This document shows, in pieces, positions 11,926 to 61,299 of a stretch of 64,000 nt of DNA. Where the stretch lies: contig NZ_CP114902.1 of assembly GCF_027497235.1 (NCBI RefSeq), forward strand, positions 5,172,001 to 5,236,000. Direction: 5' to 3'. Both the position numbers and the translations under genes were made by a program. Every line of letters starts with the position of its first letter. The first letter of the stretch is position 1. The notes beneath the pieces are model-generated. The model did not search any database. It had not been told where the DNA came from and saw only the letters and a list, made by a program, of their open reading frames with translations. The stretch is from Micromonospora sp. WMMD1128 (GTDB taxonomy: Bacteria; Actinomycetota; Actinomycetes; Mycobacteriales; Micromonosporaceae).

Positions 11926-11934
11926 CCTATTTAC

Positions 11935-24154: not shown

Positions 24155-24157
24155 GTG

Positions 24158-24920: not shown

Positions 24921-25622
24921 ATGTCGGCAGCCAAGCCCCAAGCGGTAGTACTGCTAAGCGGCGGTCTGGACTCGGCCACAGCCCTTGCAGTGGCCGTCAA
25001 GGAGGGGTTCGAAGCCAACGCCCTCAGCTTCCGCTACGGCCAGCGGCACACTGTAGAACTCGAAGCCGCTGCCCGGGTCGCTAAGGCCCTGGCGGCGACG
25101 CGACATGTTGTTGCGGACATCGACCTTAGGGTGTTTGGTGGATCCGCCCTGACCGACGACGAACTTGCTGTGCCCCACCATGAGCGCGCCGAGGAGATTG
25201 GGAGCGAGATCCCCGTCACCTACGTGCCTGCTCGAAACACCATCTTTTTGTCGTTCGCGCTTGCTTGGGCAGAGACCTTGGGGGCGTCGGATGTCTTCAT
25301 CGGTGTAAGCGCTCTTGACTACAGCGGCTACCCGGACTGCCGACCTGAGTACATCGCGGCATACGAGCGGATGGCCAACCTCGCCACCAAGGCAGGCGTC
25401 GAGGGCACGCAGCGCATGAAGATTCACACACCGCTCATCGACCTAACGAAGGCAGACACCATCCGGCTAGGTCTCAGCCTTGGCGTCGACTACTCGCTCA
25501 CCCACAGTTGCTACGACCCGGTCGGAGGCCGCGCCTGTGGCACCTGCGACTCCTGCCTGCTCCGCACCCGAGGCTTCGCCGAACTCGGTATGTCAGACCC
25601 CGCCGTCGGCAGCACGGCATGA
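24921..25622 (+). CDS. queC: 7-cyano-7-deazaguanine (preQ0) synthase QueC
   Basis: A 233-residue enzyme that converts 7-carboxy-7-deazaguanine to preQ0 with ATP and ammonia. The PP-loop SGGLDS is at residues 13-18, and the zinc site C197, C206, C209, C212 ([16 protein letters not shown]) is complete. FRYGQRH and [18 protein letters not shown] are QueC signatures. It begins a seven-gene operon and overlaps queE as ATGA. Third-position GC is lower than in the genes before it, consistent with a transferred island. In this setting it supplies preQ0 for DNA rather than, or as well as, tRNA. Confidence 0.96.
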
Positions 25623-26266
25623 GATCCGCGTACCGCATTAAAGAGATCTTCTACACGCTGCAGGGCGAAGGTACTCATGCCGGGCGGCCCGCGGTTTTCT
25701 GCCGGTTCACAAGCTGCAACCTCTGGACAGGCCGCGAGACCGACCGTCATCGCGCCATCTGCCAGTTCTGCGACACAGACTTCGTAGGTACTGATGGGCC
25801 AGGAGGGGGCCACTTCCGGTCGGCTCAGGATCTGGCGGCAGCGGTGGCAAAGGCGTGGGCTGGTGCAGCCCACCCGAGGAGCAGACCATACGTTGTTTGC
25901 ACTGGCGGAGAGCCGCTTCTGCAACTCGATGCTGCTGCTGTCGACGCTCTTCATGACGAAGGCTTCGAGGTGGCTATCGAGACGAACGGGACGCGGCGCG
26001 CACCCGCTGGCATCGATTGGATCTGCGTAAGCCCCAAGGCCGGCAGCGAGCTGGTCCTCACCGACGGTCATGATCTCAAGCTTGTCTACCCCCAGCCGGG
26101 GGCGGAGCCTGAACGATTCGAAGGTCTGAACTTCGCTAACTTTCTCCTTCAGCCGATGGACGGGCCCGACCAAGCGGCGAACACCCGGGCCGCCATCAGT
26201 TATTGCCTCGCCCATCCTCAATGGTCGTTGAGCCTGCAGACACACAAGTACATCGGGATTGCTTGA
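25619..26266 (+). CDS. queE: 7-carboxy-7-deazaguanine synthase QueE (radical SAM)
   Basis: A 215-residue radical SAM enzyme that contracts 6-carboxytetrahydropterin to 7-carboxy-7-deazaguanine. The cluster ligands are C33, C48 and C51, spaced CX14CX2C, the expanded motif known in some QueE enzymes in place of CX3CX2[22 protein letters not shown] at the N-terminus (broken by the Arg-Phe before the first Cys) and [11 protein letters not shown], the SAM-binding GGE, confirm the family. The start ATG 25619 overlaps the queC stop, and its stop overlaps queD as TGATG. Confidence 0.95.
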
Positions 26267-26625
26267 TGGAAATCTTCCGTGAGTTCACCTTCGAAGCTGC
26301 TCATCGCTTGCCGCATGTGCCCGAGGGGCACAAGTGCGCTCGCCTCCATGGGCACTCCTATCGCGTTGAGGTACACGTGCGCGGCGAGGTCGGAGCGTCG
26401 TCCGGATGGGTGATGGACTTCGGCGACATCAAGACAGCATTTCGACCCCTCCTGGATCAACTGGACCACTACTACCTAAACGAGGTGCCGGGCCTCGAGA
26501 ACCCGACCAGCGAAATGCTGGCGCAATGGATCTGGGCGAGACTTGTCGATCAATTGCCGCTGTCGGCCATCGTGGTCAGGGAGACCTGCACCTCGGGTGC
26601 GGTCTACCGGGGCGATGCCTCGTGA
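26266..26625 (+). CDS. queD: 6-carboxytetrahydropterin synthase QueD
   Basis: A 119-residue tunnelling-fold enzyme that makes 6-carboxy-5,6,7,8-tetrahydropterin from dihydroneopterin triphosphate. Zinc ligands are H13 (EAAHRLPH), H28 and H30 in CARLHGHSY, with C24 as the catalytic Cys of the CxxxHGH motif. [17 protein letters not shown] and [12 protein letters not shown] are all standard. GTP cyclohydrolase I (FolE), the step before, is not in the island and must come from the host chromosome. Confidence 0.96.
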
Positions 26626-27626
26626 CGGAGGCGACGGCCGACGAAAGTTCGCCGGGTGTCCCTGCAGACAGCAACAGCCCGTCGCAGGCGCCAGCCCGCG
26701 TTCATATCGTCGTCACCTGCGCGAACCGCAAGAACCTGGCAGTGCCTGCGGCGCTGCGGGTCAGGGCGCTGTCGAACTACGCCCCTAGGCAGAAGCTCGC
26801 AGAGTGGACCCGACGACTGTCCGAACCTAGCCAGCCTTCCATTGCCGCAACGTCGCTCTATGCTGGCGAGCACTGGGCCGTCGCACGTCAGCTGGTCAAT
26901 CCGAGAAGCGTGGAGACGCAGCTCTGGATCTGCTCCGCGGGGTACGGGCTGGTCCCCGCCACCGCGCAGCTTCGCCCCTACGCCGCGACCTTCGCGTTGC
27001 GCGAAGCAGACTCGGTCGGACAAGGTTCGACCGAGAACCGCGACTGGTGGCGGGGACTAAGCGAGTGGGTTGGCCCGGAACCCGGTACGCCCCGATCGTT
27101 CTACCATCTAGCCCGAATGAATCCCGACGAAACGATCATCGCCGTCCTATCGGATACCTACCTTCGGGCGTGCAGTGATGATCTCCTGAGGGCGGCGGGG
27201 CGGCTACGGGACCCGCAACGGCTGACAATCGTTGGGCCGGCTCAGGCGGACCGCGACTTGGACGAACTGGTCGTCGGCGTGACCGCTCGCATGAGACCGG
27301 CAGTCGGCGGCAGTCTGCTCGCCCTTAACGTGCGCGTTGCGCAGCGCCTCCTGGGCCGAGTCACCGCGGAGCCTCGCACCCACCGCCGCTCGTACTTCCG
27401 GGCGTTGGCCCACGAACTGGCAGCCGTCGCGCCCCCGCAGCCGCCTCCGCCTCACCGTGAGCGCATGACCGACGACGAGGTTAAGGCCTTCATCCGGCCA
27501 CTGGCGGAGGCCGGGCCAACCTCGGCGACGCGCCTGCTCAGACAACTACGGAACTCCGGCAAGTCATGTGAGCAGGCACGTTTTAAGCAACTGTTCGACG
27601 AGATCTCGCTGGAAGTGCATTGCTGA
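26622..27626 (+). CDS. dpdC: DpdC-like protein (candidate preQ0-to-amide hydrolase), YaaA/DUF6884-like core
   Basis: A 334-residue protein starting at GTG 26622, which overlaps the queD stop as GTGA. After a 25-residue disordered lead, the core reads [11 protein letters not shown], then [13 protein letters not shown] and [25 protein letters not shown]. This is the pattern of the DUF6884/YaaA-like fold (CxxxK, LYxG, SAxYGL). A C-terminal region near residue 270 ([13 protein letters not shown] to [17 protein letters not shown]) looks like a small winged helix. In Salmonella, DpdC is needed to convert preQ0 in DNA to the amide form dADG. Position between queD and dpdB/dpdA supports that role. 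The equation with DpdC rests mainly on context. Confidence 0.65.
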
Positions 27627-28768
27627 TGGCGCCCTCACATGACTCGAAGAACATCGCACGCCGTGCGCTGCGAATCGCTCAGCCGGGCACTCCAGCGCTC
27701 TACCTCTTCGCACTGCAGGCGGAAGAGGTACTCCAAATCGCAGACATTTCCCGCGTCAGCCGAGACGACGCCGGGAAGTTGATCGGCTACCAACGCCCGC
27801 AGGTACGGAAGCACATACAAGAGATCGTCGAGTACCTCGACACCGAGGCTGCCGTCTTCCCCAACCCCATCATCTTGGCCCTGTCGTCCAGCGTCCGGTT
27901 TCAGTCGAGCAGAGGGCCGGGTGCCGCAGATGGACTCGCGACCTCCGGGCTACTTAGCATCCCCCTGCCGCAATCCGGCAAGCCGAAGCCCGCATGGATC
28001 GTCGACGGACAGCAGCGAGCCCTGGCGCTGTCCCGTACCCAACGGCAGCAGTTTCCGGTACCAGTGACGGCGTTCGTGGCGGACAGCGTCGGTTTCCAGC
28101 GCGACCAGTTCCTACGCATCAACAACACCCGCCCACTGCCACGCGGCCTGGTGACCGAACTCCTGCCGGAGGTCGACAGCCCGCTACCACCTCGACTCGC
28201 AATCCGGAAGGCACCCTCGGCACTGTGCGACGTACTGAATGCCGACAAGGCGTCGCCGTTCTGCGGGCTGATTAAGCGGGCGTCGACCAGTCGGCAGCAG
28301 GCACCGAACGCTGTCATCACAGACACCGTCGTTGTCGAGATGATCCAAGAGAGCCTCACCTCGCCGGCGGGCTGCCTCTTCCCCTACCGCGACGTCACCC
28401 GCAACGAGACAGACTTCGACGGGATCCTCCAGGCGCTCTGCACCTATTGGTCAGTAGTGCGTGACACGTTCCCCGAGGCATGGGGCAAGCCGCCCGCCAA
28501 GAGCCGCCTCATGCATGGGGCCGGCATACGAGCTATGGGACGGCTGATGGACCGCGTGCTGGGCACGGTTGATCCACGCCTCCCCGAAGCACCCGAGTTG
28601 ATCAGCAAACACCTCGCCGTGATCGCGCCGCATTGCCAATGGACGGGAGGAAGGTGGGACGAACTCAACCTTCGCTGGAACGAGATTGAGCACGTGTCCC
28701 GCCATGTGCAGGAATTGTCCAATTACCTCATCCGCGTCTACCTGAACGAACGGGCGGGAATTCGATGA
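27626..28768 (+). CDS. dpdB: DpdB-type DGQHR-domain protein, copy 1
   Basis: A 380-residue protein. ATG 27626 overlaps the previous stop as TGATG; an in-frame TTG at 27620 is less likely. The DndB/DGQHR-type motif is DGQQR at residues 127-131, preceded by KPKPAWIVD and followed by the conserved DQFLRINNTRPLPRGLVTELLP. The segment AWGKPPAKSRLMHGAGIRAMG is shared almost exactly with the second copy at 29990-31189. In Salmonella, DpdB works with DpdA to insert preQ0 into DNA and has ATPase activity. It overlaps dpdA as ATGA. Confidence 0.85.
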   Translation: MAPSHDSKNIARRALRIAQPGTPALYLFALQAEEVLQIADISRVSRDDAGKLIGYQRPQVRKHIQEIVEYLDTEAAVFPNPIILALSSSVRFQSSRGPGAADGLATSGLLSIPLPQSGKPKPAWIVDGQQRALALSRTQRQQFPVPVTAFVADSVGFQRDQFLRINNTRPLPRGLVTELLPEVDSPLPPRLAIRKAPSALCDVLNADKASPFCGLIKRASTSRQQAPNAVITDTVVVEMIQESLTSPAGCLFPYRDVTRNETDFDGILQALCTYWSVVRDTFPEAWGKPPAKSRLMHGAGIRAMGRLMDRVLGTVDPRLPEAPELISKHLAVIAPHCQWTGGRWDELNLRWNEIEHVSRHVQELSNYLIRVYLNERAGIR

Positions 28769-30006
28769 AGTTCTTCTTCCCCGACAGCCAGGACCAGGTA
28801 GACCCCACGTTCGACTTTCAAACCGAGGAACGCGACCCGTTCCGAGTGCGCCAACGCGATGACCTGTACGCCCACGAAGTGCTAAAGCCACCGCCGTTCA
28901 ACGGCCTCTTGGTCTCCAAGGCAATCGTAGATGGGACTGCCGGCACCAGCACCGGCAAGTACACCCTGCCCCAGCGCCACAGGCTTTACCGGCAAGGGGC
29001 GCGTGAGTTCTTCCGCCTCGATAATGGCAGCGCGCCGTTAAAGATCATGGGTGACTGCGGAGCTTTCTCGTACGTTGGTGAGGATTATCCTCCCTACACT
29101 GTCGAAGAGGTCGTCAGCTTTTACGAGGGGTGCGGGTTCGACTACGGCATCTCCGTCGACCACGTCATCTTCCAGTACGAGCCGAAGGCCCTTCGCACCG
29201 ACGAGGCAGCCAAGGAGTGGGTCCGACGGCAACAGATCACCCTCGATCTCGCCGCAGAATTCTGGCAACGTTGTTCAGCCAGCGACGTTCACTTCACGCC
29301 CCTTGGAGTGACTCAGGGTTGGAGCCCGGAGTCATATGCCGATGCAGTGGTGGAGCTGCAACGGATCGGGTACCGACGGATCGCGGTCGGGGGCATGGTG
29401 CCGCTGAAGACGAAGGAAATCCTCGCCTGCCTCCGCGCCATCGACGATGTACGCCTGCCCGACACCGAGTTGCATCTCCTGGGCATCAGCCGCGTCGGCG
29501 ATATTCCAACGTTCGCTGACCACGGCGTGACGAGCTTCGATAGCACGTCGCCCTTCCGCCAGGCGTTCAAGGATGACCGGGACAACTACTACGCGCTCGA
29601 CCGGACGTACGTGGCGCTTCGCGTCCCTCAGGTCGACGGGAACGCGAAGCTCAAGGCGCGGATTCGCTCCGGTGAGATCAGCCAGGGGCGGGCCATGCAG
29701 TTGGAGCGGGCCGCGCTGGCCCGCCTTCGCGAATTCGATAGGGGCGAGATCGCCATCGAGGCCGCCTTGGAGGCGTTGGACGCCTACAGCGCAGTGTGGG
29801 ACGGTAAGGCAAACAGGAGCAGCCAGTACCGCGACACGCTCGAAAATCGGCCGTGGCAGGCATGCGACTGCTCGATCTGCAAGAAGGTCGGCATCGAGAC
29901 AATCATCTTCCGTGGGGCGGAGCGCAATAAGCGCCGCGGCTTCCACAACCTACACGTATTCGGGCAGCGACTGCGCCGGCAGCTTGGAGATGACGATCGT
30001 GACTAA
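28765..30006 (+). CDS. dpdA: DpdA, DNA-guanine transglycosylase (TGT paralogue)
   Basis: A 413-residue TIM-barrel enzyme that exchanges guanine in DNA for preQ0. It keeps the TGT active-site plan: D97 in IMGDCGAFSYVG, D132 in SVDHVIFQ, and DSTSPFRQAF later. The zinc site C367, C369, C372 (ACDCSIC) with H397 (FHNLHVF) is complete, as in tRNA TGT. The tRNA-specific PUA domain is absent, and the insert between barrel strands (YTLPQRHRLYRQGAREFFRL) differs, which fits DpdA. It is in the centre of the operon, flanked by two DpdB-type proteins. Confidence 0.93.
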   Translation: MKFFFPDSQDQVDPTFDFQTEERDPFRVRQRDDLYAHEVLKPPPFNGLLVSKAIVDGTAGTSTGKYTLPQRHRLYRQGAREFFRLDNGSAPLKIMGDCGAFSYVGEDYPPYTVEEVVSFYEGCGFDYGISVDHVIFQYEPKALRTDEAAKEWVRRQQITLDLAAEFWQRCSASDVHFTPLGVTQGWSPESYADAVVELQRIGYRRIAVGGMVPLKTKEILACLRAIDDVRLPDTELHLLGISRVGDIPTFADHGVTSFDSTSPFRQAFKDDRDNYYALDRTYVALRVPQVDGNAKLKARIRSGEISQGRAMQLERAALARLREFDRGEIAIEAALEALDAYSAVWDGKANRSSQYRDTLENRPWQACDCSICKKVGIETIIFRGAERNKRRGFHNLHVFGQRLRRQLGDDDRD

Positions 30007-31189
30007 GCAGGCAGACAAGAGCGCCATGGCCGCGAACTCTGGGGACGTCCTACATCTTCCGGCTCTTGAGATCAGGCAGGGACCCAACCGCCGTCTGTAC
30101 ACGTTCGCGGTGGACGGCAAGCAAGTCCCGTCGTTCGCCGCCGTCTCGCGCGTCCGACGCGACAGTCAGCAGCAACTGCACGGCTACCAACGGCCTGAGG
30201 TCCTGGCACACGTGGCGGCGATCCGCCGCTACGTAGAGTCCGACGACAGCCCTCTACTGCCGAACGCAATCGTCGTGGCTTTCGACGACCGGGTTCGCTT
30301 CATCCCTGCGGACACCGCCAGCGACGGACCTGGCTACGTCCGGATGGGAACCCTCGTGGTACCCGTGAGTGAGGACTGGGAGGACGCCGACAAGCCTGGG
30401 TTCATCGTGGACGGCCAGCAGCGTTGCGCGGCCATCCGGGATGCGGAGGTCTCGGACTTCCCTATCTGCGTCACCGCCTTCATCACTGCCGACCAGGCCG
30501 ACCACCGGTCGCAGTTCATCCTCGTCAACTCCACCAAGCCACTGCCCAAGGGCCTGATCCACGAGTTGCTCCCGGCCGCGTCTGGGCCGCTGCCGAACCA
30601 GCTACGGGTGCGGCAGCTCCCCGCGACGGTCCTTGAACGACTGAACTTCGAAGAGCGTTCGCCACTACGTCACATGATCCAGACGCCAACCAATCCCACG
30701 GGCGTCATCAAGGACAACTCCATGCTGCGCATGCTGGAGAACAGCATCTCGGATGGTGTTCTGTACCGGTTCCGGGGAAGCGACGGGTCGCTGCCGAACA
30801 TTGGACTGATGGTGACCGTACTGAGCGACTTCTGGACGGCCGTGCGAGAGGTATTCGGTGAGGACGCCTGGGGCAAACCCCCTCGCAAGTCGCGTCTGAT
30901 GCATGGCGCCGGGATCATCAGCATGGGCTACCTGATGGACGCCATCGCCGACACAAACGGCAGCGGCGAGGACGTGCCGGACGCTCAGGCATTCGCTGCC
31001 GGGCTGAAGACCGTCAAGGATTACTGTCGCTGGACCGAGGGCACGTGGGATCTGGGCGACGGAATTCCGCGCCGCTGGAACGATATTCAGAACACTCCGC
31101 GGGATATTCAGCGGATCACGGATTTCCTGGTGTCCACATATTATGCCAAGCAGGGAAAGCGACACGATCGGTCGAATCGTCTCTTTTAG
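29990..31189 (+). CDS. dpdB: DpdB-type DGQHR-domain protein, copy 2
   Basis: A 399-residue paralogue of the protein at 27626-28768. ATG 29990 overlaps the dpdA end by 17 bases; GTG 29999 has a better-placed GGAG and is an alternative. DGQQR is at residues 141-145, followed by SQFILVNSTKPLPKGLIHELLP and AWGKPPRKSRLMHGAGIISMG. The paralogues share these segments but differ widely elsewhere, so the duplication is not recent. It ends the modification operon; the next gene converges from the other strand after 110 bases with no clear terminator. Confidence 0.83.
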   Translation: MTIVTKQADKSAMAANSGDVLHLPALEIRQGPNRRLYTFAVDGKQVPSFAAVSRVRRDSQQQLHGYQRPEVLAHVAAIRRYVESDDSPLLPNAIVVAFDDRVRFIPADTASDGPGYVRMGTLVVPVSEDWEDADKPGFIVDGQQRCAAIRDAEVSDFPICVTAFITADQADHRSQFILVNSTKPLPKGLIHELLPAASGPLPNQLRVRQLPATVLERLNFEERSPLRHMIQTPTNPTGVIKDNSMLRMLENSISDGVLYRFRGSDGSLPNIGLMVTVLSDFWTAVREVFGEDAWGKPPRKSRLMHGAGIISMGYLMDAIADTNGSGEDVPDAQAFAAGLKTVKDYCRWTEGTWDLGDGIPRRWNDIQNTPRDIQRITDFLVSTYYAKQGKRHDRSNRLF

Positions 31190-31299
31190 CCTGCACTCCC
31201 GGAGGTATATCCCACCCCGCAGCCGGTGTCGATAATCTAAAGCCGTTTGGGCCCAGAGCGTCGGCACCTGCTGCCTCTTATGCCGGCTGCCACCACAAA

Positions 31300-33327
31300 T
31301 CAAGATGAGACGGATGCCGCAATCGCTCCACTCTCGCTAAGCGCGGCAGTGACAGCACGCAGCAACGACGCAGATCCGGCACCCTCGGCCTCACGGATCC
31401 TGGCATCAGGACGCGCAGTCGACCGGATGAAGCCTGTGGCGGCGTGCGTGGCGCACCGGGTAGCCATGACGATGATGTCGGCCCGCTGGACCCACTGCTT
31501 CAACTGCCGGCTTCCAACGTGATCGTTACTGAGTTGCACGTTCAACGCCGGCGCGAATCTTTCTAGAACGCTGCTCGCACGTCGCAGTGCTCCTTCGTCC
31601 AGGGAGTACAGGAGGACCTGGCCCGCTGAGGTGGGCGTCGAATTGAGGCTGGGCGATTGGGTTGTCGGGGATGTCCAGACAAGCCCAAGATCGAATTCGT
31701 CGTTGATGAGGCGAGCCAGCGCAAGCTGGTCGGCCTCCAGCCTGCCACGCTGAAGGGCCAACGGCGCCAGGAGCAACTGAAAGAGCCGCAGGCGTGCTTC
31801 GTTGTCAGGGCTGGGAGCGCGAGCGACCACGTCACAGATGTCCAAGACGACCGAGGCCTGGCTAACGCTGATCCAGCGGTCGCTCTCTGCTCCAAGGTCG
31901 TCCAGCAGACTTCTGTACCCGGCCGCCGGCAGGCCACCACGCAGGGTGATCTCCAACAGAGCGACGATGCCGGCCATGTCATTGGACCGGAACCGATTAT
32001 GGGTCAGCGCGTTGGTTAGGAATGCCTGTGCTGTGTGGCTGGCCGGCTGCCCGTAGCCATCGCTGTCGACGAAAGCTCCGACAATCATCCAGGCGCGTTC
32101 GGCGCCGTCGTTGTCGAGGCCGTCTAGCAGTTGGGCGAGGGCCGAATCGGAAGCGGCTGCGGGCGGCCAGGAGCGCCAAGCCTCCTCGGCGATCAGCGCA
32201 CCAATATCCTGGGAGTTGGCGATGGCCCGCACCAGTTCGAGCCAGGATCCTACGCGAGCCGCACTGGGCCGTATGACGGGTGGCGTGTTGTCTTCCAGGC
32301 CCTCGGCGGGGGCCTCCTCGGTGGTCGTGGGGGAAAGAGGCGGGAGCGTAGCTGGGCGCTCGGCGACCGAGGCTGGATAACCGGCGGAATTTAGCAGGTC
32401 GGGCCAGGCCGCGCCGAGGCGCTGCCACGCGTCGCCTTCGTGTCGCAGCCGATCCCATAGTGCGCGATCGGCTGTGGCGGAGGCCGCGAGCGCGATCACA
32501 GCAAGTGCCTCGACACCGAAACCGGCCAGCGGGCCATCGGCGAGTGCTGGCACCACTTCACCGTGCAGGACCACTGCCTGCCGTGCCGCCTCGGTGTTAC
32601 CGTCGGCCAGCGGGCCGGCGAGCGCCGTGGAGTGGATCGCATCCAGGATCGCCTCGCGGACCGGGGCCGGTGGACGGGTGGCGACCACGTCGCGCAGTGC
32701 AGGCAGGCGCAGCAGCTCGCCGTGGCTGCCCAGCCGGGCTAGTCGCTTGATCGCGAGATAGGTGAGGTTCATCCCGCTGAGGCCGGTGCCCTCGAGTCGG
32801 GCCAGCAGTTCGGCGGTGGCCCGGTGGTCGCCGGCGGCCATTGCCAGGTCGAACTCGGCCAGCAGTCGCCCCACTGGCACCGGCTCACTCCAGTAGGTGG
32901 CTGGCCGCTGTTTGATGGTCCGACGCATTCGGGCGAGTGCCGCCCACACGTCGCGGGAACTCTCCTGCGGATGCTCTAGGACGTACACCCGCCGGTGGCC
33001 GACGAATGCAGCCACCGCGTCGTCAACCAGATCGCCAGCCCGCAGAGCCTCGGGCCGGCTGACGAAGGCGGCGTGGCTAGGCACTACGAATGCGGTGAGC
33101 CACTCCCGCACCGCTGTTGCCTGGCGCCTGAGCCGGGGGATGACGTAGACGTACTTGCGCGGGTTCCCGGGTTCGTTGCGTGGCAGGATGTACGGCACGT
33201 CGGACTGGTCGGTCAGCAGGGCGAGGTAGTCGGCGAGGAACCCGGCGGCCGGCGAGCGGGGATCCCGCATCGGCCACGCCGCATTTCCGGGGCCGAAGAA
33301 GTGGTCCAGAAAGGTGTCGACGTCCAT
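31300..33327 (-). CDS. dpdD: DpdD-like protein of the Dpd restriction operon
   Basis: A 675-residue protein starting at ATG 33327, chosen because AGGTGAGG lies seven bases upstream and the previous gene stops at 33335. The N-terminus VDTFLDHFFGPGNAAWPM fits my recollection of DpdD proteins. The middle is a long helical region with many Leu/Ala repeats, and the C-terminal 120 residues form a compact alpha/beta domain (VLLYSLDEGALRRASSVLERF, WVQRADIIVMATRCATHAATGFI) that could bind nucleic acid or a partner. No enzymatic motif is visible. DpdD contributes to the restriction phenotype in Salmonella. It is the last gene of the minus-strand operon. Confidence 0.72.
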   Translation of the reverse strand: MDVDTFLDHFFGPGNAAWPMRDPRSPAAGFLADYLALLTDQSDVPYILPRNEPGNPRKYVYVIPRLRRQATAVREWLTAFVVPSHAAFVSRPEALRAGDLVDDAVAAFVGHRRVYVLEHPQESSRDVWAALARMRRTIKQRPATYWSEPVPVGRLLAEFDLAMAAGDHRATAELLARLEGTGLSGMNLTYLAIKRLARLGSHGELLRLPALRDVVATRPPAPVREAILDAIHSTALAGPLADGNTEAARQAVVLHGEVVPALADGPLAGFGVEALAVIALAASATADRALWDRLRHEGDAWQRLGAAWPDLLNSAGYPASVAERPATLPPLSPTTTEEAPAEGLEDNTPPVIRPSAARVGSWLELVRAIANSQDIGALIAEEAWRSWPPAAASDSALAQLLDGLDNDGAERAWMIVGAFVDSDGYGQPASHTAQAFLTNALTHNRFRSNDMAGIVALLEITLRGGLPAAGYRSLLDDLGAESDRWISVSQASVVLDICDVVARAPSPDNEARLRLFQLLLAPLALQRGRLEADQLALARLINDEFDLGLVWTSPTTQSPSLNSTPTSAGQVLLYSLDEGALRRASSVLERFAPALNVQLSNDHVGSRQLKQWVQRADIIVMATRCATHAATGFIRSTARPDARIREAEGAGSASLLRAVTAALSESGAIAASVSS

Positions 33328-33334
33328 CACGGCC

Positions 33335-33853
33335 TCACCTGGCGGTGCCGAAGCGGCGAGTGAAGTCGATCCGGGCGGTGCTGGCGATCGCCGGATCGAC
33401 CCGGTAGCTGACGATCTCGTCATTGACACTCATGCCGCGGTAGGTGAAGTTCATCGAGCCGGTCATCAACCAGTCGTCGCCGCAGAGCGTCTTCTCGTGC
33501 ACGTCTTCGGCGCGCATCGCCTGTGCCCGTCCCGGCGCCGTCTGCCTGAGCAACCGGTCGACGAAAACGTCGTTGAACGGGTCGGGTCGCGTCACCACCG
33601 ACAGTCGTCCACCGCCGTGGGTGATCGCTGCCAGTACGTCAGAGAAGGTGTAAATGCGGCTGGACGGGTCGGCGAACACGCTGTCGTAGGCGCCACCACG
33701 GTTGTCAATGATATCGACGTCGCCGACCCACGGCGATACGAGCCACAGGTGGCGGCTGGGCGTCATCAACTCGGCCAACAGCACAGTCGCCAGGACTCCG
33801 TCGATCCGAACCCCGGTACGCCCGCTGGTTCGGACCACCCGCTCCTCGCTCAT
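33335..33853 (-). CDS. dpdK: DpdK, phospholipase D-like nuclease
   Basis: A 172-residue protein starting at ATG 33853, overlapping the dpdJ stop as ATGA. It has one HKD motif, H119-E-K121-(x4)-D126, followed by GSMN at 132-135; single-HKD proteins of this size act as dimers. The N-terminal strand VLLAELMTPSRHLWLVSPWVGD is the standard PLD opening. In the Dpd system it is the best candidate for the DNA-cleaving subunit acting on DNA that lacks the 7-deazaguanine mark. Confidence 0.9.
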   Translation of the reverse strand: MSEERVVRTSGRTGVRIDGVLATVLLAELMTPSRHLWLVSPWVGDVDIIDNRGGAYDSVFADPSSRIYTFSDVLAAITHGGGRLSVVTRPDPFNDVFVDRLLRQTAPGRAQAMRAEDVHEKTLCGDDWLMTGSMNFTYRGMSVNDEIVSYRVDPAIASTARIDFTRRFGTAR

Positions 33854-41900: not shown

Positions 41901-42048
41901 CGGCTCGTAGTTGCGGGTCGCGTCGGCTGATCCGCAACGGCACGTGGGTGGCCAGGAACACCGAGGTGGACGGGCTGACTGCTTCGGTGCTCAGCGTGGC
42001 GATCGCCGTAGAGGCCTTCCAGCAGACTCGTTCCCGCAGGTCAGCCAT
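38932..42048 (-). CDS. dpdH: DpdH-like P-loop ATPase
   Basis: A 1038-residue protein starting at ATG 42048, which overlaps the dpdG stop by eight bases; a longer in-frame start at 42093 would run deep into dpdG. Walker A is IGQSGTGKSHL near residue 80 and Walker B IVLLIEDFAVIQGL. Cysteines in NACENDPRRGVGGGECRFRTSC may form a zinc site. The rest is long and helical. It resembles AAA/ORC-like motor proteins (compare DndH/PglY-type ATPases). Expected to power the restriction complex; not directly shown for this protein. Confidence 0.8.
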   Translation of the reverse strand: MADLRERVCWKASTAIATLSTEAVSPSTSVFLATHVPLRISRRDPQLRADVGGIAVTEEDVLDDFLNRPLGNGVLLMPVIGQSGTGKSHLVRWVYERTRRRSADNLVVIHVPKASTSLRALVRILLDREDIVSEKLTQLRRQVDDLASGMDEQALQRHLLFALAEAVAAADPGTDKSRRALVGPTRLAMVLRDVHVGSYLTQDGALIPRLAASLLHDRGEGESDRPTQFTPEDLPHIADIDAAASNVRSLLALMMDRPRLQMAAAALITENLSTAVQQVFKLGGRLQDAMLTIREEYHKQGKEIVLLIEDFAVIQGLQRDLLEALIEAGVRDGRQVLAPVRTLMAVTTGYYRNLAETVVTRVEAATPYVYDLDAAFDPDSDGPDYTMDFIGRYLNAARLGAENLEAAGVADNAPVPNACENDPRRGVGGGECRFRTSCHEAFGASESGYGLFPFNWPALRRAIKSTAGEDETFNPRRIIGRVIRPVLEDAESLANGQFPSSRFREQFPLARDELALSPEVKVNIADLDPVDNERRALLLEFWGDAPPELRNLEPGIHEAFAISTLSTASTAPTTPPPGRRATDASSTATPGRTTLQVSQQAPADLRDKWSRSLRTMVEDVAEWEAGRRPLLQNTAAAVRRIISTAVVNRCDWSTPLMAEPSADAKRAAWPAKSSVVSIQDAEAEAQNAGAPIRFTRNARNAMFFRHLLTLDQGAEDPGNAAALPRLARLADRYQGDLIRAVQRVRSADDEHLTAGLTASLVGASLAGRAWPGMSDAELMAVAFDDGASWSLADAALRTARWVDAYEKHRIHRRALVAELRQLLGVAQGSSGAVRILDSGRALSLVRKAAAHWAWEPGTAAAPWYKDAASSLRHFETLVKSQLAMLQEHRRQLAEWLPIGVSVGETLDAVDQAFQEATKVGLLPGGEMRQTFPAQLTVMRTRDWRIVEQLRRDLERVESAEDAQWRRACITAASRDRGADLGALMEFLRSGDDWLTAGLQAAHMRTGGLGEDLAEQVRQVRTEWEQIVANPHPGEESHE

Positions 42049-42943
42049 TGTCGTCGGCTCCAATCTCGACGTCGGTGAACCGGCCGACTCCACCGGCGGC
42101 GCGAGGGTCGCTGAATTGGACGCCGCCGATGGCGTCCGAGGGCGCGCTCAATATCAACCAGCCTTCTTCGCGGCCCCGTTGCAGCGCGAACGACAGCACG
42201 GCCGCCACGTCGAGCGGGCCTGGCTTGAGGCCCAGCGCCCGGCTGAACCGCCCACCGGGCAGCACAGGCAGCACCTCGAGCAGCCCATCGACAAACTCGC
42301 GTGCGCGCAAGTGCGTGCCCGACCGCCACTGCTCCCGCACCGTGCGCCGCACCGCCCGGGTGCAATCGGGCACGAGCGCCCGTGCCCCGCCCGCCTGCAG
42401 CAGCGGCGCGTCGGCGAAGCCCAGCGCGGGCGCCCAGTAGGTGAAGCCGTTCCACCGCTCTTTGTTCCGCAGCGGATTACCGAGGTCATCGGCCAGTGCC
42501 TTGTGCTGTTCGACGCCGAAGGTGTTCACCGTTACCCGGGTCAGCTGGCTGTCCAGGGTCAGGAACCAGCACAGTGAGCGCAGCAGATCCTTGCCCTGGG
42601 TCTGCGACGGGTCGGTGGCCAGTGTCTCGGTGCTGACTCGGGTGAGAACGCGCTGGCGCAGCAGGTCGTAGAAGGCTTCGAGGTCCTCGCCGTCGACCGC
42701 CTGCGCCTCGGCGGATAGCGCGAGAACATCCTCGGCCCGCTCGACCAGGCCGAACTCCTCGGCGGTGCGTGTGGCTCGCTCGAAGGTCCGCTGCTTGTCA
42801 CCCTCAGGGACCAGGCTCGGAGGGCTGAGAATAGCCTCGGCGTCGGCCAGCCGCTGCCGCTTCCGGGGCTGGCCTGCGAGGTGGCGGACCAGGGCCCACA
42901 GCGGTCGCGGCAGCGACGATTCGACGTTGATCAGCGCTACCAC
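42041..42943 (-). CDS. dpdG: DpdG-like protein
   Basis: A 300-residue protein starting at GTG 42943 and overlapping the dpdF stop by seven bases. It is mainly helical, with two winged-helix-like stretches (TFERATRTAEEFGLVERAEDVLALS near residue 55 and the FALQRGREEGWLIL region near 265). No enzyme motif is seen. Place and length match dpdG, a gene implicated in the restriction phenotype. Likely a DNA-binding or bridging subunit. Confidence 0.72.
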   Translation of the reverse strand: MVALINVESSLPRPLWALVRHLAGQPRKRQRLADAEAILSPPSLVPEGDKQRTFERATRTAEEFGLVERAEDVLALSAEAQAVDGEDLEAFYDLLRQRVLTRVSTETLATDPSQTQGKDLLRSLCWFLTLDSQLTRVTVNTFGVEQHKALADDLGNPLRNKERWNGFTYWAPALGFADAPLLQAGGARALVPDCTRAVRRTVREQWRSGTHLRAREFVDGLLEVLPVLPGGRFSRALGLKPGPLDVAAVLSFALQRGREEGWLILSAPSDAIGGVQFSDPRAAGGVGRFTDVEIGADDNG

Positions 42944-45486
42944 GCGGAGTCCCTTACCAGGATGTCGAGTGAGATGGATCTATTCATGTACCGCAACGGC
43001 GTATCCGGCCGGTGCGGATCGGGCAGATCAGCCGGATGGACCAGGTAGGTCGGGTCGGGTCCGGTCAAGCGTTCGGCCAATGCCGCCGACAGCGGCGCCC
43101 GCGCGTCGTCCAGCAACCAGACCAGCGGGCCGTCGTAGGCGCCGAGCATGCTGTGGTCGCCGTCCACGATGATTGGGTGCGGCGCGGCCCGGCGCTGCGC
43201 CCGGCGTACCACCGCCGCGGCCAAGGCGGGTCCACCAACGACGACGTAGCCACGGCGAGCGAGCGCCTCGATCAGATCCGGTACCAGGTCGAGGAAGTGG
43301 GATCGCTGGGACCAGGCGATGCTCAGCAACGGGCTGCCGCCCCGGTACCCAGCCAGTGGATCGGGCGGGTGAGGCCAGCGGGCGCTGTCGGGCCATGGCT
43401 CGGAGCCGCGGCGGCGCAGGCCGCTCGAGTCGGCAGCCCGGGCGGTACGGCGGCAATAGGGGCAACTGCGGCAGAAGCGCGCAGTCGGCAGCACCCCGCC
43501 GTCCCAGGGCACCCGGTAGTGCTCGGCCAGTACGTCTGCGACGCAGCGGTCCCCTTTCAATAGAGCGGACAGTTGGCGCAGCGCGGCTCGCTGTTGCTCC
43601 TTTACCTGGTGCCGCTGGGCGCTGAACGTCTCCTCGAAGTAGGCGCGATCGTTGAGCCGGCCATCCAGTTCGGTGACCACCCGCAGCACCGGGTGGCTAC
43701 CTGCCGGCGAAAAGTCGTCATTCTGGCCCCACCGCTGGGCAGGCGCTTCCTGGCGGATCAGGTGGGCCCGCTCCATCAGGTTGAGAAGTTTGACGTTCCA
43801 CTGCATGTTTCGGGCGGACTCGTCGTGCAGGTGAGGGGGCAGCTGGATCAGATCGATCTCCAACCTGCTGTCCGGCAGCCACCGGGCTTTGTCTCGCATG
43901 GCTTGCCACCGCAGCCAGCCGCGGTCGTCACCTATGAGGATCATCCGATTAACCCGCTCGGCCAGGTTCAGATCGCCGGGAGCCGTCGCCAGGTACGCGA
44001 CGCAGGGGCGGCCGTCTCGGCCTCCGCGCCCCACCTCCTGGTAGTAGCGGTCGATGGTCTCGGGTAGGCACGCGTGAACGACCGCGCGGACATTGGGCAT
44101 GTCCACGCCCAGACCGAACGCCGAGGTGCCGACGACGACGTCGAACCGGGTCTCGGCCGGCGTGCCGGTGGCGTCCTCGCCGCGCCATCCCGCAAGCACC
44201 GCGCGTCGCTCCGCCTCGGTGGACTCACCAGTCAGCCGAGTGATCCGGCCGAAGCCGGCCCGGTCCAGTCGGTCGCACCAGAGTTCGGCGTCCTCCCGGG
44301 TGGTGGTGTAGAGGATCAGCGGTCGGGGCAAGGCGCCGACCGCCTCTAGCACCGCCGCATCACGCACGTTCCGATCGCCGAACTCGTCGACAAAATAGAT
44401 CGGCTCCGGTCGGGTATGCGATGCCCAGACCACCTCCACGGGTCCCGGGCCGCCGAAGGTACTGGTCAGCGTCTGAACCTGTGTGGCGGTGAGTGTGGCG
44501 CTCATCGCGACGGTTACCACCTGCCGGCCAGACGGAGCGTGGTCCAGCCAGGAGCGACGTTTGGCGGAAATCGCCTGGAACTCTGGCCGGAAGTCGTTGC
44601 CCCACTGCTCGACGATGTGCGCCTCGTCGATGACCAGATGTGTCAGGTGCCCGGCTGCCGCAGCGGCGTCCAGCGCGCTATTCAGGCCGGTCATCAGCGC
44701 CTCGGGAGCGGCGATCACGACCCGCTGTTGGCCTGAGCGGATGTCCCGGCGAATCGCCTCCTTCGTCGCCTGGTCCTGGCCGCCAGTATAGGCGTACGTG
44801 CGCGCTGCCCCCGCAGCGTCACCGCACTCATGCAGGTGCTGGCGGAGGCGCCGCTCCATGTCCAGGGCGAGGACCACGGTCGGCACCACCATCACCGCCA
44901 CGCCACCGTGTCGCGTCGCCAGTAACACGCTGGCCCACGCCACCTCGGTCTTACCCTGTCCCGTCGGCAGACAGGCGATGACGGTGGCGCCGGGCGGCGC
45001 CGTAGCTACAGTACGGGCGGCCTGTCGCTGCCCCTGAGAGGTGTAATGCGTAAACCGTGGCCCCAGCGCCTCAGTCCAGAAGGGGTCCGCCGGCACAGTC
45101 AGTGCACGGCCAGCAGCGCCGGCGTAAACCTGGCGCAGGTCAGTCATGCCGGTCTCATCACTGGGAGGAGCCCATGGCTCAGCGCTGATTCTCAGCCCGT
45201 CCCGGACGGCCATTGTCGCGCAGAGCGCCGACTCCCATTGTCGGGCATGCGGCAGCGCAGGATCCAGGGGTACCACCAGCGACAACTGGGCTCCGGTGCG
45301 GGCGTGGTGTTCCAGCAGCACCTGACGGGTCAGGGCGGTGACGTCCCGCCACCGGACGGCGCCGCGGGCGACCCCGGTCAACGCATCGCGTAGTCGCAGA
45401 CACGTGCCAGCAGCGGGAATGTCGGCGTGGCCGCCTGGCCACGCCCGCCAAATCGACTGCGCGGTGGCCCAATCATCGAGGGGCAC
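42937..45486 (-). CDS. dpdF: DpdF, RecQ-like helicase
   Basis: An 849-residue helicase starting at GTG 45486; GGGGAG lies seven bases upstream and the start overlaps the dpdE stop by 14 bases. Motif I is CLPTGQGKT (172-180), motif II VIDEAHIVEQWGNDFRPEF (the RecQ-type DEAH and aromatic-rich loop), then SATLTATQ, TSAFGLGVDMPNVRAVVH and QEVGRGGRDG. Near the C-terminus FCRSCPYCRRT supplies a Cys cluster, and the last domain HPIIVDGDHSMLGAYDGPLVWLLDDA could hold a partner-binding fold. It is expected to unwind DNA for the Dpd restriction complex. Confidence 0.9.
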   Translation of the reverse strand: MPLDDWATAQSIWRAWPGGHADIPAAGTCLRLRDALTGVARGAVRWRDVTALTRQVLLEHHARTGAQLSLVVPLDPALPHARQWESALCATMAVRDGLRISAEPWAPPSDETGMTDLRQVYAGAAGRALTVPADPFWTEALGPRFTHYTSQGQRQAARTVATAPPGATVIACLPTGQGKTEVAWASVLLATRHGGVAVMVVPTVVLALDMERRLRQHLHECGDAAGAARTYAYTGGQDQATKEAIRRDIRSGQQRVVIAAPEALMTGLNSALDAAAAAGHLTHLVIDEAHIVEQWGNDFRPEFQAISAKRRSWLDHAPSGRQVVTVAMSATLTATQVQTLTSTFGGPGPVEVVWASHTRPEPIYFVDEFGDRNVRDAAVLEAVGALPRPLILYTTTREDAELWCDRLDRAGFGRITRLTGESTEAERRAVLAGWRGEDATGTPAETRFDVVVGTSAFGLGVDMPNVRAVVHACLPETIDRYYQEVGRGGRDGRPCVAYLATAPGDLNLAERVNRMILIGDDRGWLRWQAMRDKARWLPDSRLEIDLIQLPPHLHDESARNMQWNVKLLNLMERAHLIRQEAPAQRWGQNDDFSPAGSHPVLRVVTELDGRLNDRAYFEETFSAQRHQVKEQQRAALRQLSALLKGDRCVADVLAEHYRVPWDGGVLPTARFCRSCPYCRRTARAADSSGLRRRGSEPWPDSARWPHPPDPLAGYRGGSPLLSIAWSQRSHFLDLVPDLIEALARRGYVVVGGPALAAAVVRRAQRRAAPHPIIVDGDHSMLGAYDGPLVWLLDDARAPLSAALAERLTGPDPTYLVHPADLPDPHRPDTPLRYMNRSISLDILVRDSAW

Positions 45487-48400
45487 GGCCGGCTCCCCAC
45501 AGGTCGCCGCCAGCGACACAAATCGCGGCCATAACCCGCAGCTTCGGCGTGTGCAAGCCATCGATGAGAAGGTCGCTCAGCACGACGTCGGTGAGGTAGC
45601 TTTCGGTGTCTGACAGCAGCCGGCCGGCGGCCTGCCGGGCCAGCGCCTGCGCCCGTTGGACAGCCAGTGTCCTCTTGCCTTCCTCGTAGGCTGCGGCAGT
45701 CCGGTCACGTACGCGGTCGCCCTGGGCGACTAGATGCCGGGCGGTGGCCTCGGCACGGCGAGCGGCGGTGGCGAAGCGGTCAGCACCGCCGAAACTGTCC
45801 AACAGCGGAATGATTCGATCAGAGTTGAGGTTGACGTCTCGCTGGTGCGGATACGGGGCGTTCAACCAGCGCAGCAGGGCCTCGTCGGTGACCTGCACAC
45901 CCGCGGCGTCCAACCAGATGCGGTCCATGAAAGGCGGCAGCAGCAGGTCGGCCTGACGCCGGATGGCATGTCGGGCTTCCGCACCCGCCGCCGGGTGGCA
46001 CAGCGCGGCGTCCAAGTCAGCTTCCGCCATGACGTCGAAACCAAAGTGAACTGATTCCTGCGACCGTCCCGGGCGCCAGAGCGCGGAGGCCTGTCCCCGA
46101 TCGTCGATACCCACGACGGCGGCGAGCAGTTCGATGAGGGGGTTGCCGATGCGGAACAGTCGCACTCCGGGCTGGCGCATGCTGACGTTGCGGTTGAACG
46201 CCCCGGTCATGCTGTCGGCCGGCAAACGACTGCCTTCATGGGCCAGGATCAGCGGTGAGATGAGTGGTGGATTCCGGTGGTCGACTCCGATCGTGACTAC
46301 CGGCCCGCTTTCTGGCTCGGCCGTCAGCCGCAGGCCGCCGCTGGCGCCGTGGACCAATGCGCGCAGGGCGCGTTCGTGCTGCGGCCAGCTTTGTTCCATC
46401 CGGTCGATCCGCTTAGCCAGGCGCACCCCCAGCGTGGCGTGATGGACGGACTCCAGCGCGTCCATCGCCTCAATTTCCCGGCGCTCGCGCACGAGCGCAG
46501 AAGTGATCTTATCGGCGAGTGCCGTCATTGCTGTCGGTCCCTCGCGCAGGGCCATCTCCCAGGCTTGGACCTGCAACTCGTCCAACATGTCTTGCAGGGC
46601 CGACAACGAACCGTCGAATGCGCCGAATGCCCGTGTCAGCAACTCACGCCAGGCCGCGACGAACGATTCGTCCGCGTTGCCGCCCGCCTCGCAGTACTGG
46701 GCGGCGGGCTCGCCGTTTGCGCCGAAGCAACCGGCGAACCGGTCCACCCGGCCCAGTCGCTGCTCCAGCCGATTAGGCGACCAAGGGAGCCGCAAGTGAA
46801 CGACGACATCGGCGTCCTGCAGGTTGAGCCCGTCCTCGCCGCTGCCGTCAACAAGCAGGAGTGCCCCGCCAGCGCGCCAACGGTCCAGGTCACCGGCAAC
46901 CTCGGCGGCAGTACGGGTGCGGCTATGCCGCAGTACCGTCCACCTGGTACGTCTAGCCAACACCGCCCCGAGGTTGTCGGCTAACTGGCCCGCGCCGCAG
47001 AATACAACCGGCCGTTGTCGGCCTTTGACTGCCTGGGCCAGGCCGTTGAGGCGCGGCGCGGCGCTGGCTGCGGCGTCGGCCAACTCGGTCAGGGTCTGAC
47101 GTTCGAACGGTAGCGGCCGCGCTTGCCGCAACAATGCCCGCTCGGTCGCCGACAGGCCGGCTCGGTCGGCGGCGGCCGCCTCGCCGTCGAGCCGCCACCG
47201 AAGCGCGTCAGCAAGGTCGTCGGACAGTTCGTCGGCCCGGCTAGCGAGCACCGCCAACACCTGGCCATACTCGCGTGCGCGTTGGTCCTCATCATGGTCC
47301 AGCAGCCACTGGGCCACCCGCTGCTGCCAGCCCAGCAGTGCCTGATAGACGAGGTCCGCCCGCTGGCCGCCCAATGTCAGGCCGTCAGGGCGGCGACGAC
47401 CGCTGACCTCAAACGGCAAGAGATCGTCGTCGGTCTTGCGCAGCACCTGCGTCCGACGGTGCCGAATCATCCGCCGGTGAAGCCGGTAGGTCTCGCTGAT
47501 GTGTGCGCGCAGCACCTCCAGGGCGCCGGCCAGCCGCGGCCGGTCGGCCTCGTCGCGCAACTCGTCGTCCTCCGTGAGGAACTGGCGGACGCCTCCGGCG
47601 AGGCGAGCGAAGGTGGCATCGTCGGGGATCAGGTCCGCGATCTCCAACAGCACATCCGGCAACAGGATCTCGAGATCCGCGTTGAGCCCGTGGACGGCGT
47701 TAGCAAGTCGCCGCCGATCGGCGAAGCGCTGTCGGAACTGTTCGAGATCCGCCCACCGGTACAAGTGGGGGTCAAGCAGGTGCAGCAGGCTCAGATGCAA
47801 CTCCGGGCGAGCGGTCGCTGGCGTCGCCGACAGCAGGATCAACCGGGGAACCGCATGGGCCAGGGTCGCCAGTTGCGGATACGGCTCGTCATCTGGGTTG
47901 CCGGCCCGGGTGAGGTTGTGCACTTCGTCGATGACGACCAAGTCGAATCGGTGATACTCGTTCCAACGATCCGGTGTTTCATGCTGGCCGATCCGGATCT
48001 CCGCCTGAGGGAAGTCCTCGGTGAAGAATTTGGTGCGCAGTTCGCTACTCCACTGCCGACGCAGGATGTCGGGGGCGAGAACAGCGATTCGGGCGGTCGG
48101 ATGATCGATGAGGTGCTGCCGGATGACCAGCCCGGCCTCGATGGTCTTGCCGAGGCCCACCTCGTCAGCCAGCAAGTAGCGCTGCACGGGATCGGTGAGC
48201 ACGGTAAGCGCCGCGTCGATCTGGTGCGGGTAGATTTCGATGGCGGAAGATACCAGCGCTGAGAAGTTCGCGGAGGCCGCGCGCTGGCTGACGAGGCTGT
48301 GCAGCATGGGTAGACGCGCTCGACGATAGTACGGGGATTCGTTCGCCCCTACGGCCAGCACTTCGATTGGAGAGCGGACGGGGCGGTGCCAGCGCACCCG

Positions 48401-48703
48401 TAAGTCGGCACCCGACACCCGAACGTCGAACTCGCTGTTGGGAAGTCGGATGGCGTAGTCGTCCGGCCCACCGGCAACCACTCGGCCGGCGCGCCACATG
48501 CCGGTCCCGACGTCCCGCCAGAACACCCGCGTCTCAGCAGGCAGGATGACCGGTCGACATTCACCGGCGGGTAGCGACCAGGTGGCGACTACGGGCTCGG
48601 CAATCGATTCGAATGCCTCAACCTCCACGGCGGCGCCAACTTGTGCTCTGACCCTGGCAATCCCAGGGATGCGCGGATGTTGCACAAACTGCCCAGGTGT
48701 CAT
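45473..48703 (-). CDS. dpdE: DpdE, SNF2-like helicase
   Basis: A 1076-residue SNF2-type ATPase starting at ATG 48703. Motif I is LADEVGLGKT (178-187), motif II VVIDEVHNLTR, motif III LLSATPA, and the second RecA domain ends with LPWSPNRLEQRLGRVDRFAG. This is the HepA/RapA-like branch. A longer frame runs up to 49072, but its first 123 codons show no family features and ATG 48703 gives the normal N-terminus (GQFVQHPRIPGIARV). It is the first gene of the restriction operon. Confidence 0.9.
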   Translation of the reverse strand: MTPGQFVQHPRIPGIARVRAQVGAAVEVEAFESIAEPVVATWSLPAGECRPVILPAETRVFWRDVGTGMWRAGRVVAGGPDDYAIRLPNSEFDVRVSGADLRVRWHRPVRSPIEVLAVGANESPYYRRARLPMLHSLVSQRAASANFSALVSSAIEIYPHQIDAALTVLTDPVQRYLLADEVGLGKTIEAGLVIRQHLIDHPTARIAVLAPDILRRQWSSELRTKFFTEDFPQAEIRIGQHETPDRWNEYHRFDLVVIDEVHNLTRAGNPDDEPYPQLATLAHAVPRLILLSATPATARPELHLSLLHLLDPHLYRWADLEQFRQRFADRRRLANAVHGLNADLEILLPDVLLEIADLIPDDATFARLAGGVRQFLTEDDELRDEADRPRLAGALEVLRAHISETYRLHRRMIRHRRTQVLRKTDDDLLPFEVSGRRRPDGLTLGGQRADLVYQALLGWQQRVAQWLLDHDEDQRAREYGQVLAVLASRADELSDDLADALRWRLDGEAAAADRAGLSATERALLRQARPLPFERQTLTELADAAASAAPRLNGLAQAVKGRQRPVVFCGAGQLADNLGAVLARRTRWTVLRHSRTRTAAEVAGDLDRWRAGGALLLVDGSGEDGLNLQDADVVVHLRLPWSPNRLEQRLGRVDRFAGCFGANGEPAAQYCEAGGNADESFVAAWRELLTRAFGAFDGSLSALQDMLDELQVQAWEMALREGPTAMTALADKITSALVRERREIEAMDALESVHHATLGVRLAKRIDRMEQSWPQHERALRALVHGASGGLRLTAEPESGPVVTIGVDHRNPPLISPLILAHEGSRLPADSMTGAFNRNVSMRQPGVRLFRIGNPLIELLAAVVGIDDRGQASALWRPGRSQESVHFGFDVMAEADLDAALCHPAAGAEARHAIRRQADLLLPPFMDRIWLDAAGVQVTDEALLRWLNAPYPHQRDVNLNSDRIIPLLDSFGGADRFATAARRAEATARHLVAQGDRVRDRTAAAYEEGKRTLAVQRAQALARQAAGRLLSDTESYLTDVVLSDLLIDGLHTPKLRVMAAICVAGGDLWGAGRAPR

Positions 48704-61232: not shown

Positions 61233-61299
61233 CCCCACCAACCAGGGCCGCTAACGAACCACCAAGTCCGCATCGGACATAGCCTCCCGAACCACCCTC

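Follow-up and report, generated by a model that had tools for sequence, protein, structure and literature searches.

The locus and its genes

The window analysed here, a stretch of 64,000 nucleotides from Micromonospora sp. WMMD1128 (contig NZ_CP114902.1, positions 5,172,001 to 5,236,000), carries at 24921-48703 what its sequence identifies as a complete Dpd island, that is, a system of 7-deazaguanine DNA modification and restriction (all coordinates are positions in the whole window). The host genome is a single contig of 6.81 Mb, and the closest named relatives of the island's DpdA are from Micromonospora. Families were called protein by protein with the NCBIfam equivalog cut-offs, and PADLOC models were used in addition. 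Specifically, 13 proteins exceed the NCBIfam cut-offs (QueC, QueE, QueD, DpdA, two DpdBs, DpdD, DpdE, DpdF, DpdG, DpdH, DpdJ and DpdK), and with scores such as 604 bits for DpdA against a cut-off of 200, chance is excluded. The features, in order, are the following.

24921..25622, + strand: queC, 7-cyano-7-deazaguanine (preQ0) synthase (NCBIfam TIGR00364 208.5 bits, cut-off 150.3)
25619..26266, + strand: queE, 7-carboxy-7-deazaguanine synthase (NCBIfam TIGR04508 352.7 bits, cut-off 240)
26266..26625, + strand: queD, 6-carboxytetrahydropterin synthase (NCBIfam TIGR03367 116.8 bits, cut-off 89.25)
26622..27626, + strand: dpdC, predicted enzyme converting preQ0 to 7-amido-7-deazaguanine (ADG) (PADLOC DpdC 227 bits; no match in the NCBIfam search)
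27626..28768, + strand: dpdB1, upstream DpdB paralogue, a DGQHR protein (NCBIfam DpdB 422 bits, cut-off 300; B1 side of the DpdB tree)
28765..30006, + strand: dpdA, DNA-guanine transglycosylase (NCBIfam DpdA 604 bits, cut-off 200; PDB 7ui4_A E 7.8e-123)
29990..31189, + strand: dpdB2, downstream DpdB, E. coli type (NCBIfam DpdB 480 bits, cut-off 300; DpdB tree)
31189..31300, no strand: junction between modification and restriction half; matches to swapped islands end here (blastn to G046 and G057)
31300..33327, - strand: dpdD (NCBIfam DpdD 534 bits, cut-off 300)
33335..33883, - strand: dpdK, nuclease of the phospholipase D (PLD) type with a single HKD motif (NCBIfam DpdK 187 bits, cut-off 100)
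33850..38271, - strand: dpdJ, helicase (NCBIfam DpdJ 1625 bits, cut-off 800)
38268..38939, - strand: DpdI-slot protein, all-helical in a model and fast-evolving (position between J and H)
38932..42048, - strand: dpdH, P-loop ATPase (NCBIfam DpdH 1047 bits, cut-off 450)
42041..42943, - strand: dpdG (NCBIfam DpdG 104 bits, cut-off 80)
42937..45561, - strand: dpdF, RecQ-like helicase, exact start uncertain (NCBIfam DpdF 812 bits, cut-off 550)
45473..48703, - strand: dpdE, SNF2-like helicase (NCBIfam DpdE 1068 bits, cut-off 500)

The modification half, queC-queE-queD-dpdC-dpdB1-dpdA-dpdB2, lies on the + strand with slight overlaps between adjoining genes, and it runs head-on into the restriction half on the - strand, dpdE-F-G-H-DpdI slot-J-K-D. 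A first-pass annotation of the same DNA had recognised a preQ0 supply (QueC, QueE and QueD), a DpdA with D97/D132 and a CxCxxC zinc site, DpdB-type proteins and a DpdC candidate, and had proposed a check with hidden Markov models (HMMs) of the Dpd proteins; this check was run, and the scores above bear out each of these assignments and place the genes in the Dpd set, not in unrelated families. Its claim of a head-on operon stands for DpdD, E, F, G, H, J and K, while the DpdI slot, which fails its model, is the one gap in the set.

Residues 1-407 of DpdA align to the solved DNA-guanine transglycosylase 7ui4 (E 7.8e-123), and D97, D132, D259, C367, C369, C372 and H394 are near-invariant (at least 97%) across 60 aligned rows. 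We take the catalytic roles of D97, D132, D259 and the CxCxxC...H set to be those known from work on tRNA-guanine transglycosylases. In DpdK, H129 and K131 are near-invariant (38 rows), and DpdJ is a helicase of the YprA family according to PMC12458937.

Regarding the supply of preQ0, one FolE is encoded in the host genome, outside the island, and QueC proper is found only in the island, the other genomic PF06508 match being weak and partial (E 1.1e-4). A tRNA queuosine pathway was rejected as a rival reading of queC, queD and queE: a PF01702 search of the genome gave no tRNA-guanine transglycosylase match at E ≤ 0.001 and its control was positive in 14 of 14 genomes, the search being insensitive in that it does not list DpdA, a distant relative (E 0.00028 on its own). 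Because of this negative result and the confinement of QueC proper to the island, the preQ0 made here appears to be reserved for DNA. In other islands of the genus, a folE2-like open reading frame lies between queD and dpdC (gap frames of eight loci were inspected), and the one frame that was searched, in G043, is folE2 (PF02649, 281 bits). A folE in this gap was considered and dismissed, as a FolE query matched only a Vibrio locus (L046) and the gap gene is folE2. What is missing from the window's group is folE2, not folE, and the group either lost it or never had it.

We read the two DpdBs, on their sequences, as an ancient paralogous pair. By best tblastn label, dpdB1 occurs in 43 and dpdB2 in 49 of the 51 named loci, both misses of the latter at contig ends. 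A tree built on 51 DpdB rows of chosen loci places the B1 proteins on a single branch (Shimodaira-Hasegawa-like approximate likelihood ratio test, SH-aLRT, 100) that spans Actinomycetota, Planctomycetota, Acidobacteriota, Cyanobacteriota, Myxococcota and Pseudomonadota, and it groups the DpdB of E. coli with B2; the DGQQR motif is kept in both paralogues. That DpdA works with a mixed B1-B2 partner is a guess. The duplication as such was set aside as a novelty, since 801 extra dpdB copies are already counted in PMC11888242.

Probable separate histories of the two halves

Dpd loci were collected by DpdA similarity. Matches were found in 16 of 160 genomes of the genus, the host included, and 15 are strong; these 15 Micromonospora islands were fetched and 13 used for correlations, G121 (contig ends) and G013 (genes outside the fetched stretch) being dropped. 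Here G numbers are genus genomes, with G000 as the window's own island, and L numbers are named loci, of which L002-L006 and L014 were left out of the joint set as duplicates of G121, G020, G119, G043, G002 and G066. A weak DpdA-like match at G064:C1:4202113-4202385 (E 9.9e-4, 36%), which contains stops, lies in an otherwise islandless genome and is perhaps chance or a remnant, was left out of all comparisons.

Across the 13 islands, pairwise identities of the genes agree closely within the modification half (Pearson, mean r 0.93, minimum 0.88) and within the restriction half (mean r 0.98, minimum 0.95), whereas across the halves the mean r is 0.10 and the maximum 0.20. Mantel tests of three within-half pairs give p 0.0005 every time, against r 0.05 and p 0.36 for dpdA-dpdJ and p 0.16 for dpdB2-dpdD across them. 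As judged from these sequences, each half is inherited as a block, and the two blocks reassort. More specifically, the window's proteins are 95-98% identical to those of G046 in the modification half and 31-40% in the restriction half, and 94-98% and 27-39%, respectively, to those of G057, for all seven modification and all seven assigned restriction products. With G084, modification proteins (80-94%) and restriction proteins (77-90%) are similarly close, and with G084 and G075 together the ranges are 76-94% and 77-90%. At the DNA level, identity to the window is 94.7% for G046 and 93.7% for G057 over a stretch that begins 132 bases upstream of queC and ends near the dpdB2 stop, beyond which only short matches are found; blastn similarity ends at island position 16426 (G046) or 16436 (G057) and the dpdB2 stop ends at 16425, so that the breakpoints fall at this stop.

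Trees agree with this picture. Restriction types R1 (that of the window), R2, R3 and R4 were set, coarsely, by a DpdJ tree and identity; this tree and the modification tree (dpdC, B1, A and B2) were quick ones without bootstraps. The latter has 31 rows, six of the 37 DpdJ rows having been dropped (L016, L022, L027, L032, L035 and L043), and 29 of the 31 are typed, L025 and L047 being left untyped. The window, G046 and G057 share one clade of the modification tree yet carry R1, R4 and R2. In approximately unbiased (AU) tests the modification data reject the restriction grouping of G000, G084 and G075 (p 0.0065), as well as those of G057 with G020 and of G119, G139 and L010, and the DpdJ data reject the groupings of G000, G046 and G057 and of G139, G017 and G043. 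On the modification tree the restriction type changes 10 times over the 29 typed rows, where 300 shuffles gave 6-10 changes (mean 9.4), and 6 times over the 14 Micromonospora rows alone (shuffled mean 5.7); with changes no fewer than in the shuffles, the type is unclustered on this tree. The pattern recurs in Terrabacter, where similarity can also lie the other way round. Two loci, L037 and L038, share queC, dpdC, B1, A and B2 at 92-99% and restriction F, G and H at 31-38%, whereas L034 and L037 share modification proteins at 46-82% and restriction proteins at 84-90%. Across families, Acrocarpospora L010 and Micromonospora G119 are 80-88% identical in DpdD, K and J against 50-71% in DpdC, B1, A and B2.

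Remnants of other cassettes have been left at the junction. In G046, a dpdD piece of the window's R1 type lies between dpdB2 and the resident R4 dpdD, its eight listed matches all being R1. In Terrabacter L038, dpdB2 is directly followed by a 47-residue N-terminal piece of a dpdE matching the type in its sister L037 (66%), and then by dpdF, G and H that belong to a different type. Both remnants point to a restriction half replaced in place, and on this ground the R1 combination of the window is probably ancestral in its group, several relatives carrying replacements.

The block difference, its left boundary and the free orientation recur in another phylum, in E. coli, which was searched with the island of plasmid pPOL9A. 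Of 5,426 E. coli genomes, 161 have a match to the dpdCAB of this island, in 159 of them across 80% or more of the query; counted type by type, three dpdJ types occur in 47, 54 and 58 genomes. The three restriction types stand beside DpdC, A and B that are 91-99% identical: strains D2 and isolate 162 share these at 97-99% and their restriction proteins at 23-40%, with DNA similarity that ends in the last dpdB codons and resumes at queD, and ATCC 8739 has a third cassette, inverted. In pPOL9A, DpdC and DpdA are closest to D2 and isolate 162 (98-100%) and the restriction half is of the ATCC 8739 type (91-98%). The E. coli strains, ATCC 8739 included, are in effect natural swaps, with quite different cassettes beside the same DpdC, A and B. 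In a Vibrio locus (L046), two diverged dpdA-dpdB sets are oriented back to back ahead of restriction genes, an arrangement that could mean two marks and a single reader.

The DpdI slot was looked at separately. Its protein scores 13.2 bits (E 0.064) against the NCBIfam DpdI model, with a cut-off of 150; position and size fit DpdI, and an AlphaFold2 model from nine sequences is all-helical (mean predicted local distance difference test score, pLDDT, 85.4). Other restriction types hold differing proteins in this slot, and those of one R2 island and of the R4 island match the DpdI model at E 4.4e-8 and 2.7e-6, both below the cut-off. Similarity of slot profiles between types in hhalign is weak (probability 40 for the window type against the ATCC 8739 type, 96 for D2 against the latter); DpdI is the least similar component between the E. 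coli types (22-24%). In database records of five regions, the slot gene is labelled hypothetical in L126, L128, L129 and L130, and DpdI is named only in L127.

The predicted DNA mark and competing explanations

In the modification half of Dpd systems, host FolE together with QueD, QueE and QueC makes preQ0, DpdA with DpdB swaps DNA guanine for it, and DpdC converts part of it to ADG. In the window, host FolE and the island's QueD, QueE and QueC would accordingly supply preQ0, DpdA and DpdB would insert it in DNA, and DpdC would turn part of it into ADG. The three helicases, the ATPase and the PLD nuclease of the restriction half point to ATP-driven inspection and nuclease attack on unmarked DNA, with E, F, J, H and K presumably inspecting DNA and destroying that which lacks the mark. 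What the sequences show is a modification half that hardly varies and, next to it, a restriction half that differs as a unit starting at the dpdB stop codon, whichever way round it lies. Because restriction proteins of about 35% identity stand repeatedly beside modification proteins of about 97% identity, the simplest reading is that the halves meet at the DNA mark and that the restriction half reads this mark, not partner proteins; from this we infer that the cassettes are functionally exchangeable. The halves would communicate through the mark, needing neither matched protein partners nor a privately matched site, and different cassettes would read the same mark while selection, probably driven by phages, keeps changing the attacking half. 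We consider it quite probable that the island is a complete Dpd system of two independently inherited cassettes linked through the DNA mark. For the bolder proposal, of a common mark with exchangeable readers, in which cassettes that are 60-70% different plug in, in either orientation, without a matched partner or a private target, the chances appear about even.

Each cassette might instead be specific, if all modification halves set one site pattern and every cassette recognises it. Swapped islands mostly have modification proteins that are 90-100% identical, as this would predict, but one cassette type also pairs with modification halves that are only 50-78% identical to each other (G119 and L010), which is not decisive; on balance we regard such a shared pattern as rather unlikely. 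It is less probable still that the modification half is what moves, by homologous recombination under resident restriction cassettes. Modification DNA of G000 and G046 is 94.7% identical, against 88% for the helicase-like gene left of the window's island, which in G046 sits 24 kb from the island, and this difference implies that the modification operon itself was exchanged or homogenised between species. However, the other-type remnants beside dpdB2 favour restriction replacement in G046 and L038, and movement of the one half and replacement of the other may both act.

There is a slight chance that the swapped islands have lost restriction through decay: in G057, dpdH is broken across two frames, and the stretch fetched for L038 yielded no complete dpdE of either type. 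On the other hand, in G046, G020, G119 and G139 the seven HMM-assigned restriction genes each occupy a single long open frame, the frame of the DpdI slot is open as well, and every gene of the three E. coli islands and pPOL9A translates without stops. Finally, a much faster evolution of the restriction proteins, with no exchange, is hardly credible: they are mostly less conserved in distant comparisons, but rates are similar in G000-G084 (90% vs 86%), G057-G020 (91% vs 87%) and G119-G139 (72% vs 73%), remnants of other cassette types exist (G046 and L038), and pairs such as G119 and L010, with a restriction half more similar than the modification half, contradict it.

Several points nevertheless weigh against independent halves joined by the mark. 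The compared modification halves all share DpdA and DpdB, which may have one target preference, so that restriction could stay sequence-specific. Sampling through DpdA similarity under-represents distant Dpd types, and the groups of the AU tests were chosen after inspection of trees that were themselves quick. Among the seven islands of the window's group, dpdJ-dpdE and dpdD-dpdE have r 1.00, while dpdA-dpdB2 has r 0.68 and queC-dpdB2 r 0.22; since modification genes agree less there, the modification half may itself be a mosaic, its r of 0.93 being driven by differences between groups. Some of the non-matching cassettes (G057 and L038) may be inactive and L038 may be incomplete, and the window's own slot at 38268-38939 fails the DpdI model. 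In E. coli, DpdB of pPOL9A is closest to that of ATCC 8739 (99%), which may place the breakpoint inside dpdB, and the listed rows suggest three fixed combinations, so that exchange there may be rare.

If readers of a common mark are exchangeable, bacteria could change their attack on phages without re-marking their own genome. Type I systems, by contrast, change the specificity subunit. With interchangeable readers there would be no need for restriction to co-evolve with a private recognition site, and the DNA mark could become a standard common to different species and phyla. Judging by where islands break naturally, the functional unit may be the set of eight restriction genes beginning at the dpdB stop.

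Surroundings of the island and known systems

The first-pass annotation had also suggested that the island was acquired, and this agrees with an islandless site in relatives and with the patchy presence of DpdA in the genus; in a sampling of the whole class, 7 of 394 genomes matched, the strong ones being the window's own and two others, which were not added to the comparisons. The site was compared by blastn in eight genomes at the left flank (G046, G087, G143, G132, G092, G015, G101 and G059). In G087, G143 and G132, no more than 0.46-2.2 kb separate the left neighbour, a flavoprotein gene (24234-24761), from a match to window position 52062 or 52099, so that about 27 kb, including a nest of insertion sequences (IS), is absent there.

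24752..52062, no strand: stretch absent at the islandless site (Dpd island and IS nest), approximate (blastn to G087, G143 and G132)

G046 carries its own island at the site, and G092, G015, G101 and G059 show no island match in the stretches read there, similarity resuming further right; in four of the eight (G087, G092, G015 and G101) matches are found again past the window's end, at about 70138-70242, so that the surroundings form a hotspot. Windowed GC content is about 0.63-0.69 inside the island, 0.70-0.77 to its left and 0.66-0.74 to its right.

The IS nest at the right edge (49360-51821) is bounded by 21-base perfect inverted repeats (49360-49380 and 51801-51821), with an IS5-family copy at about 49475-50905 inside them and a second copy of this inner IS at about 59870-61303. 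Beside the island, 52055-55349 encodes a SMODS-associating 4TM effector (S_4TM, 262 bits) and has a weak TCAD9-like match below the cut-off, and with such neighbours the hotspot may hold further conflict genes. Partial copies, N-terminal in each case, of a helicase-like gene that lies at 22880-24160, to the left of the window's island, are present at the right ends of the G046, G084 and G119 islands and are possibly part of the route of cassette exchange; the sequence adjoining the right end of the window's island (48940-49260) is shared at 69-78% with six other islands. At 11877-11974, a tRNA-Cys (anticodon aca) called by ARAGORN is probably spurious.

Taken by itself, the island is a complete and ordinary example of the known Dpd system. 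The Dpd island of Salmonella Montevideo and Kineococcus radiotolerans was reportedly described by Thiaville in 2016. The window shares with it the dpdA-C synthesis operon, the dpdD-K restriction operon and the preQ0 genes, as described in PMC11888242, and differs in its two DpdBs around dpdA, where E. coli islands have one, and in a DpdI slot unrecognised by its model. PMC11888242 also lists complete dpd islands, 333 of them unique in Actinomycetota, with variable dpdD-K content and dpdB copies. No earlier report of block exchange in Dpd was found in searches of the open-access PubMed Central literature, and earlier notice elsewhere is possible; what merits attention here is the replaceable restriction half.

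The E. coli islands (D2, isolate 162 and ATCC 8739) carry the same restriction genes as the window, and their restriction half likewise differs as a block. Unlike the window, they encode one DpdB, carry queD beyond the cassette at its far end, show neither queC nor queE in the stretches read, and have an integrase or integrase remnant beside dpdC, with a tRNA-Leu in D2 and isolate 162. BRIGADE likewise combines 7-deazaguanine genes with YprA-type helicases but, according to PMC12458937, is reported only from halophilic archaea and usually has two YprA helicases, whereas the window has one DpdJ; judged by that published description, membership in BRIGADE was rejected, one protein exceeding the DpdJ cut-off and E and F the DpdE and DpdF cut-offs. 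Phosphorothioate systems (Dnd/Ssp) resemble Dpd in a modification module decoupled from the restriction module, as set out in PMC10853773; there the partners are different nuclease systems, whereas Dpd would swap a homologous eight-gene cassette for diverged versions of itself.

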